Part shown: piece by piece, positions 7,856 through 8,469 of the stretch | Layout: each line of letters begins with the position of its first letter | How positions within the stretch are numbered: position 1 is the first letter of the stretch | Source: an uncultured Clostridia bacterium | GTDB taxonomy: Bacteria > Bacillota > Clostridia > Christensenellales > Borkfalkiaceae | Reading direction: 5' to 3' | DNA: 64,000 nucleotides | Assembly: GCA_947175325.1 (NCBI GenBank) | Contig: CAMWME010000001.1 | Location: 186,001-250,000, forward strand | Made by a program: the position numbers and the translations under genes | Notes under the pieces: generated by a model | What the model was told of the DNA's origin: nothing | Databases searched by the model: none | Seen by the model: only the letters and a program-made list of their open reading frames with translations

Positions 7856-7884
7856 AAAGCCACGGCGTACGCCGTGGCTTTTTT
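7856..7884 (+). terminator. Terminator of pectate lyase gene
   Basis: AAAGCCACGGC (7856-7866) pairs with GCCGTGGCTTT (7871-7881) around GTAC, followed by T residues. Confidence 0.85.
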
Positions 7885-7887
7885 ATT

Positions 7888-7913
7888 GCCACCTTCTCCA
7901 CCACGGAGAAGGC
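7888..7913. repeat. Solo CCTTCTCC/GGAGAAGG palindrome, copy of right-hand repeat hairpin
   Basis: CCTTCTCC (7892-7899), loop ACCAC, GGAGAAGG (7905-7912). Positions 7890-7913 are identical over 24 nt to 8404-8427 in the right-hand repeat and in the same orientation, so this is a direct repeat outside the inverted pair. Confidence 0.8.
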
Positions 7914-7929
7914 AATTAACTGCATTATA

Positions 7930-7973
7930 GGCTTCCCCTTTGGGGAAGCTGTCCGCTATGCGGACTGATGAGG
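7930..7973. repeat. Left 44-nt inverted palindromic repeat of DUF559 cassette
   Basis: Two adjacent hairpins: GCTTCCCC-TTT-GGGGAAGC (7931-7949) and GTCCGC-TAT-GCGGAC (7951-7965), ending in TGATGAGG (7966-7973). Read on the minus strand it is CCTCATC + variable GC hairpin + CTTCCCC hairpin, the same architecture and length as the right-hand repeat at 8384-8427. It ends 6 nt from the DUF559 stop codon. Confidence 0.8.
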
Positions 7974-7979
7974 TCGTTG

Positions 7980-8330
7980 TTACAAGTTTAAATACCTATA
8001 AATTTCCGCGCAAACGTACGAAAAACGCTCATTAACGTCCCGATTAGAAAAACGCAAGACTCTAAACCCTAAATTCTGTAAAGACATATCCCTTTCTTTA
8101 TCAGCAATTTCGTTTTCTTCTTCATAGTGCTGTGAACCGTCAAGTTCAATTATCAATTTTGAAGATGCACAGAAAAAATCAACGATATAGTTATTAATGA
8201 CTTTCTGTCTGTTAAATGTTACGGGCAAAGTCTTGATAAAGTCATACCACAACCGCTTTTCTTCCTTAGTCATATTGTTACGCAAATTACGGGAATTGCC
8301 TTTCAATTTTTTATTGTATAGATAAGTCAT
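7980..8330 (-). CDS. DUF559 (Vsr-like) endonuclease-domain protein
   Basis: 116 residues, essentially one DUF559 domain of the PD-(D/E)XK/very-short-patch-repair nuclease fold. Landmarks are the N-terminal arginine/lysine-rich start (LRNNMTKEEKRLWYDF), FNRQKVINNYIVDFFC, the acidic LIIELDGSQHYEE with the probable catalytic E-x-D-G-x-x-H, and the C-terminal GFRVLRFSNRDV. Family members are usually 110-130 residues, so it appears intact. Its substrate is unknown. There is no Shine-Dalgarno sequence; the ATG lies 6 nt downstream of a good -10 box. It is encoded inside a pair of inverted palindromic repeats, which suggests a self-contained cassette. Confidence 0.88.
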   Translation of the reverse strand: MTYLYNKKLKGNSRNLRNNMTKEEKRLWYDFIKTLPVTFNRQKVINNYIVDFFCASSKLIIELDGSQHYEEENEIADKERDMSLQNLGFRVLRFSNRDVNERFSYVCAEIYRYLNL

Positions 8331-8336
8331 AGCATA

Positions 8337-8365
8337 ATTTTATCATTAAACTGAAAGGCAGTCAA
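8337..8365 (-). promoter_or_regulatory. DUF559 promoter inside cassette, leaderless
   Basis: Minus strand: -35 TTGACT (8360-8365), 17-nt spacer, -10 TAAAAT (8337-8342), then 6 nt to the ATG at 8330. The cassette therefore carries its own transcription start. Confidence 0.65.
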
Positions 8366-8383
8366 GATTTATTCTTGAATACC

Positions 8384-8427
8384 CCTCATCCGCCCCGTCG
8401 GGGCACCTTCTCCACCACGGAGAAGGC
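8384..8427. repeat. Right 44-nt inverted palindromic repeat of DUF559 cassette
   Basis: CCTCATC (8384-8390), hairpin GCCCC-GTC-GGGGC (8392-8404), then hairpin CCTTCTCC-ACCAC-GGAGAAGG (8406-8426). It has the same order, sizes and outer motif as the left repeat in inverse orientation. Confidence 0.8.
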
Positions 8428-8445
8428 TTTTAGGGGGGCAAAAGA

Positions 8446-8469
8446 AAAGCCCCGCCCGAATGGGCGGGG
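8446..8469 (-). terminator. Terminator of 735-residue lipoprotein gene
   Basis: CCCCGCCC (8450-8457) and GGGCGGGG (8462-8469) form an 8-bp GC stem around GAAT. On the minus strand the 3' arm is followed by a T-rich run (complement of 8441-8448). Confidence 0.8.

Follow-up and report, generated by a model that had tools for sequence, protein, structure and literature searches.

To our knowledge, repeats of the BoxC/PIT type have no known origin and no known mobility partner. Each copy combines a pyrimidine tag with a hairpin that carries its parallel complement, two variants exist, and copies can form inverted pairs. In E. coli MG1655, BoxC/PIT (TM_ECO) is present in 23 copies and forms five inverted pairs, always of an A with a B (PMC4666352). 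Such repeats have been known since the 1990s. According to the same report, genomes with the motif number more than 260, a stable triplex formed in vitro but was not observed in vivo, and remnants of a transposase or integrase were not noted at the copies; its main text holds no word beginning with DUF, nuclease, Vsr or endonuclease (PMC4666352). In REPtrons, a RAYT (TnpA-REP) is associated with REPs and BIMEs, and the REP tag is a GTAG at one end (PMC3733652). Proteins of the DUF559 family (PF04480) are described as predicted nucleases or as a repair factor. YcjD was listed as a member of the PD-(D/E)XK group, its Vsr hit being at 1e-5 (PMC1189080); in E. coli, the ycjD gene is reported to occupy the place of the eef operon between sapF and fabI (PMC12817139), and the DUF559 protein VsrA of Caulobacter drives a DNA damage response in the absence of a methyltransferase (PMC12907096). 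The portions of these papers drawn on here mention no repeat partner, and no link between DUF559 and repeats was found in the open-licence literature, although a description elsewhere is possible.

The window analyzed here is a stretch of 64,000 nucleotides from an uncultured Clostridia bacterium. It contains a DUF559 nuclease gene between two opposed double-hairpin units (Table 1), and the positions that a preliminary description had assigned to the cassette and its repeats proved correct. Both 44-nt units share one design, in which the CCTCATC tag that faces the gene is followed first by hairpin 1, which is variable, and then by the CTTCYCC hairpin 2. In its anatomy, a gene bounded on either side by inverted palindromic units, and in its distribution, the locus resembles a REPtron. 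In contrast to REPtrons, the enzyme is a DUF559 nuclease without an HUH/tyrosine domain, there are two hairpins per unit, and the tag is CCTCATC(A/C) and follows a parallel, triplex-like rule. Because the HUH/Y1 domain is absent and the tag is not GTAG, the locus would work like a REPtron without being one. Its units differ from BoxC/PIT repeats in that the loop between third strand and hairpin has grown into the variable hairpin 1, and in that they are tied to DUF559. The best reading of the locus is a REPtron-like element in which a Vsr-like nuclease may replace the HUH transposase, its chemistry being a prediction. On balance, the cassette appears to be, or to descend from, an autonomous mobile element with a Vsr-like PD-(D/E)XK nuclease as its sole gene and double hairpins as its ends.

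Table 1. Features of the DUF559 cassette, in window coordinates.
Position	Strand	Feature	Basis or remark
7888..7913	+	Outer hairpin, read as the hairpin 2 left from a truncated C-type outer unit	Edge approximates the left end of the insert
7930..7973	-	44-nt left unit	Folding, pattern match, coupling of A-tag and G-hairpin
7980..8330	-	DUF559 nuclease gene, 116 aa	
8337..8365	-	Promoter-like TTGACT-17-TAAAAT	ATG follows after 6 nt; the gene would be leaderless
8384..8427	+	C-type unit: CCTCATC-C tag, hairpin 1, C-CTTCTCC hairpin 2	Tag faces the gene's 5' end
8432..8438	.	AGGGGGG, possible leftover of an outer tag lost on the right	GATGAGGGG in L006; read by eye

DNA folding recovered the adjacent hairpin pair in both units (z of -4.4 at 8384-8427 and -7.8 at 7930-7973). 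The pattern CCTCATC-N{8,30}-CTTCYCC occurs twice in the window and the CTTCYCC hairpin three times, and neither was found in 100 shuffles. The additional hairpin copy that had been reported outside the cassette is indeed there, 7888-7913 being the last 26 nt of the right unit with one base different. It is read as part of an outer unit on the basis that an empty site in a relative (L122) diverges at this point and that another relative (L006) has a complete outer unit. While the two units and the gene stand as described, the insert extends from approximately 7888 to approximately 8444, which is wider than the bounds first given. The DUF559 gene is flanked by a pectate-lyase-like gene (1222 aa) and a 735-aa gene, the latter adjoining spo0A, and the cassette sits between convergent genes with terminator-like hairpins at 7861-7884 and 8450-8469. 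The pectate-lyase-like protein (window:4168-7836) carries a Listeria-Bacteroides repeat domain and the neighboring 735-aa protein has no Pfam match. A search of Rfam returned 22 matches up to an E-value of 5, none of which reached the gathering score; the top score, to the Brucella sRNA BSnc120, was 29.2 bits versus 114 and covers window:7835-7928 as a sub-threshold match. Rhizobial genomes carry similar CACCTTCTCC hairpins, so the BSnc120 family may itself include such a repeat.

Hairpin 1 had been proposed to be conserved in structure rather than in sequence. This was examined in 44 distinct window-type stretches from the fetched loci, of which 28 fell into length classes of at least three and could be used. 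The mean was 3.82 contiguous pairs, compared to 1.99 with the halves exchanged (sd 0.29, largest value 2.86 of 200). Hairpin 1 is hence kept more in structure, although only 19 of the 44 stretches have at least five contiguous pairs. A second proposal, that the gene has its own promoter and is leaderless, holds insofar as the promoter-like sequence lies 6 nt before the ATG, whereas such sites are no more common in the region than expected by chance (2 versus a shuffle mean of 1.9). The exact promoter-ATG pattern also precedes the DUF559 genes of L006 and L040 and occurs once elsewhere in L129; its recurrence in L123 and L132 apparently reflects the same contig as L006. As the same pattern stands before the genes of these two relatives, leaderless expression of the window gene is plausible.

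The window protein matches PF04480 with an E-value of 2.2e-32 (111.6 bits versus a curated cut-off of 20.6), and its gene is the sole PF04480 match across its own 1.54-Mb assembly. Residues invariant in all 24 aligned rows include R41, Q42, D51, F52, E62, D64, G65, H68, D77, R80 and R93; D51, E62, D64 and H68 are placed in the presumed active site, their catalytic role being suggested by the PD-(D/E)XK fold. A Y1/HUH transposase domain (PF01797) is absent from the protein and was undetected in its own assembly. Compared to solved structures, the DUF559 profile matched 3hrl at 8.5e-28; by eye, the sequence printed for this structure agrees with the L085 protein. A weaker match (9.2e-6) was to 3r3p, which is a mobile intron protein. 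A profile match to the PADLOC model 'homing endonuclease' was also obtained (3.4e-5). The distant match to 3r3p is the point of resemblance to Vsr-like homing endonucleases; unlike these, the cassette has no intron and no split host gene. In E. coli, ycjD was detected in 3365 of 5426 genomes, and 2061 of the 5426 complete genomes gave no match. E. coli ycjD (L076:2486-3049) ends in SPSP residues that extend into sequence resembling a repeat, with a BoxC-like unit about 165 bp past the gene. The DUF559 frames of L010, L015, L026, L047 and L059 read into the downstream unit, with Pro/Ser/Gly-rich tails such as GPPSPQGEG.

A site orthologous to that of the cassette, and lacking the insert, was found in G158, a genome of the same genus whose Spo0A is 97% identical over 231 residues. 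Homologous neighbors occur there in the same order (38% identity for the pectate-lyase-like protein and 47% for the first 106 residues of the 735-aa protein), both terminator-like hairpins are present, and the roughly 556 bp of the window are represented by 15 bp of unrelated sequence (L122). In G154 (Spo0A 93%), homologous neighbors enclose about 400 bp of other DNA at the cassette position. A profile search of the G158 and G154 genomes found no DUF559 elsewhere. In G192 (Spo0A 86%), a DUF559 protein with 78% identity is encoded in the same place with an inverted unit pair on each side; this contig is probably identical with the source contig of L006. The older form of the element was therefore probably an inverted unit pair on each side of the DUF559 gene. 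Since G192/L006 has unit pairs on both sides, the window looks like a decayed version of this arrangement, in which the left outer unit would have shrunk to its hairpin 2 and the right one to a few bases. A second filled site is present in Sinorhizobium sp. K101, where an AAA gene and its neighbor are separated by a block of two unit pairs with DUF559 between them (718 bp from tag to tag). In Shinella sp. PSBB067, the homologues of these flanking genes lie 10 bp from each other, and in Rhizobium leguminosarum TP16 the distance is 17 bp. The same block as in K101 was observed on pSymB of S. meliloti Ak57 (L079:1240-2070), where a copy of ISRm16 lies within or next to the right-hand pair of repeats. 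No unit or recognizable target repeat was found at the empty sites L122, L090 and L149, where a non-repeat recognition sequence is possible, and no target-site duplication could be read because the sequence around the empty sites has been replaced or has diverged too far. Insertion of the cassette as a block is well supported by these sequence comparisons.

The filled and empty sites also bear on the main rival explanation, a homing-type spread. Here, the DUF559 nuclease would cut existing repeat pairs and its gene would be copied in by break repair with the repeats serving as homology, while the repeats themselves would originate by another route. The matches to 3r3p and to the PADLOC model speak for this explanation, and in both L006 and Sinorhizobium the gene lies between direct copies of whole inverted pairs. 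However, the empty sites of G158, Shinella and R. leguminosarum contain no repeat pair, which speaks against homing, and units greatly outnumber the genes. Homing is thus considered unlikely, and an autonomous element remains the preferred reading.

To assess how general the arrangement is, DUF559 genes were collected from other genomes. Within the family to which the window belongs, PF04480 was detected in 45 of 151 genomes, 26 of them with a match below 1e-15, and in its genus 16 of 61 genomes had a DUF559 match below 1e-15. A profile search of contigs yielded 31 relatives, 30 of which were used. L036, with a match of 20 residues, was dropped throughout. For 66 oriented loci, flanks were compared with those of other genes; two loci without a flank were left out of the inverted-match test and one side was left out of the unit-score test. 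An inverted-match score of at least 28 between the 220-nt flanks was reached by 34 of 64 DUF559 loci and by 6 of 157 other ORFs from the same loci. Using a unit detector that combines a purine-armed hairpin with a parallel tag, a score of at least 10 was obtained on 69 of 131 DUF559 flank sides and on 14 of 196 control sides. Among 15 loci taken from plasmids (including two of E. coli) and from other phyla, 11 of 30 sides scored at least 14, compared to 1 of 98 random stretches drawn from these loci; five of these loci (L029, L030, L031, L033 and L034) are also among the 66. Eight of the 15 have a unit of at least 13, and E. coli ycjD, with a best score of 9.5, is not among them. Most of 13 further loci from the same genus carry such units when read by eye without a score. 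An inward tag is common and not universal (54 of 81 unit calls within 60 nt of the gene). Flanking of DUF559 genes by such units is therefore frequent in relatives and far above control genes. The repeats occur elsewhere and flanked homologues are common, contrary to both outcomes that the preliminary description had named as refuting it. The p-values given here overstate the case because related loci are not independent. As judged from sequence, the partnership between DUF559 and the units is well supported. A passive co-location, with units that are terminators or generic repeats and accumulate in permissive spacers into which small acquired genes also fall, would agree with the position of the cassette between convergent genes and their terminator-like hairpins. 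It is highly improbable given that control ORFs in the same loci are seldom flanked by units, that the block was inserted whole and that, as described below, repeat type tracks the DUF559 clade.

The relationship between tag and hairpin was analyzed in 48 double hairpins that had been found without using the tag. Agreement of the tag with the parallel complement of the 3' arm of its own hairpin 2 was 0.686, compared to 0.558 (sd 0.017) with arms exchanged, and none of 5000 exchanges was as high. This corresponds to a z of 7.3 in the 48 units and 6.3 in 35 non-redundant units, with offsets 0 and 2 having been pooled after the first anchored result; offsets 1 and 3 served as the negative control (z of -2.4), and shifted registers of the tag match fall below chance. 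An unanchored test gave 0.623 versus 0.595 for shuffled sequences (p 0.002), and here the parallel rule did not outperform a 5'-arm copy (p 0.42); its weakness is attributed to hairpin and tag not being anchored. A reading of the tag as a copy of the 5' arm was rejected, as it reached 0.404 versus 0.519 for the parallel rule at offset 0, although it was slightly higher at offsets 1 and 3. Of the window's own units, the right one follows the rule at 7 of 8 positions and the left one at only 5 of 8. In 58 T-type (window-type) units, the last tag base and the first base of hairpin 2 are C-C in 43, A-G in 12 and other combinations in 3. Twelve inverted neighbor pairs of the window type comprise seven A+C and five C+C pairs, so that pairing is partly within one type, whereas BoxC pairs of E. 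coli always contain both. By its sequence, the unit class is one that follows the BoxC/PIT rule of a predicted third strand parallel-complementary to the purine arm.

Repeat type was then compared with DUF559 phylogeny. The tree contains 63 rows (L028, L032 and L035 were left out), and 26 of the 63 fit none of four type patterns, which were written after the sequences had been seen, and were not counted. The 37 labelled loci require 4 type changes, compared to at least 11 in 300 shuffles, and the 18 loci from the window's own family require 3, compared to at least 5. In G084, G145 and G049, paralogues of differing repeat type are present inside each genome. Copies across whole genomes were counted as exact patterns, including units beside DUF559 genes; the backwards exact-pattern control gave few or no matches. 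H-type copies were present in 4 of 4 genomes with an H-clade DUF559 and in 6 of 147 others; this type is almost restricted to one genus, and the association persists inside it (p 0.0013). P-type copies were present in 6 of 11 genomes with the P-side clade, in 0 of 15 with other clades only and in 3 of 125 without DUF559; when gene-adjacent copies were not counted, the first value became 5 of 11 (p 0.007 against the 0 of 15). Copies of these two types are thus concentrated where the matching clade is present. At least three copies of the window type were found in 17 of 26 genomes with DUF559 and in 25 of 125 without (p 1.1e-5), while at least ten copies were not clearly more common with DUF559 (6 of 26 versus 13 of 125, p 0.10).

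Units far outnumber DUF559 genes. Dispersed copies include two more full units in the window's own genome and up to 134 in a genome of the same genus. The latter, G116, is among several repeat-rich genomes without a full-length DUF559 (G116 with 134 units, G112 with 65, G132 with 36 and G123 with 29), an absence that is uncertain either way because these are mostly draft assemblies in which repeats break contigs. One stretch of G116 (L151:500-2300) contains dense arrays of CTTCCCC units, CTCCC units and another repeat with GGTCATTGCGAGCG. A hidden gene in one repeat-rich stretch of this genome was considered and rejected, as the ORFs there look like chance frames within repeat arrays. Likewise, weak PF04480 hits in three repeat-rich genomes (L128-L130) did not reveal another enzyme and look by eye like genuine Vsr. 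These Vsr-like proteins have no flanking units and may be a natural negative control; one of the genes precedes what looks, by its motif, like the start of a cytosine methyltransferase.

Repeat-rich genomes without detected DUF559 are what would be seen if another transposase, for example a RAYT, moved units and cassette in trans. DUF559 would then ride along as a passenger or act as an accessory, perhaps resolving folded repeats as a repair enzyme, a role in keeping with the relationship of the family to Vsr (PMC1189080) and with the DNA damage response driven by Caulobacter VsrA (PMC12907096). Yet a search for PF01797 detected no Y1 transposase in the window's own genome, repeat type tracks DUF559 clade even among paralogues within one genome, and the three Vsr-like weak hits lack such flanks. 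Mobilization in trans is accordingly judged distinctly unlikely. The preliminary description had likened the locus to a REP/RAYT element with a nuclease in place of the RAYT, and this comparison is supported by the dispersed units, the flanked DUF559 genes, the empty site and the lack of PF01797.

We infer that the DUF559 nuclease moves the repeats. In a REPtron-like element of this kind, a unit would fold when its strand is exposed during replication or transfer, and the tag would lie against hairpin 2 as a third strand. The DUF559 nuclease would recognize folded units of its own type and cut at or near the tag, and by such cuts single units, inverted pairs or the whole cassette could arrive at new sites. 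In relation to the cassette, solo units would then be what REPs are to RAYTs, namely non-autonomous derivatives. A wider reading is tentative and stands at somewhat less than an even chance: a Vsr-like single-domain nuclease may be the sole transposition enzyme of a bacteria-wide superfamily with triplex-plus-hairpin ends, of which E. coli BoxC/PIT and the CCCTCACCCTAACCCTCTCCC-type repeats from other phyla would be non-autonomous members and in which the pairing of tag and hairpin would provide recognition.

These observations suggest that a little-studied family of enzymes either spreads a common, so far unexplained kind of repeat or is carried along with it. Through the tie between repeats and DUF559, a candidate enzyme and a predicted recognition rule become available for each repeat type, along with pairs of filled and empty sites, and a family of 'unknown function' gains a concrete candidate job. 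If a lone nuclease of the PD-(D/E)XK type is truly the enzyme of a mobile repeat, this would be a new way to move DNA.
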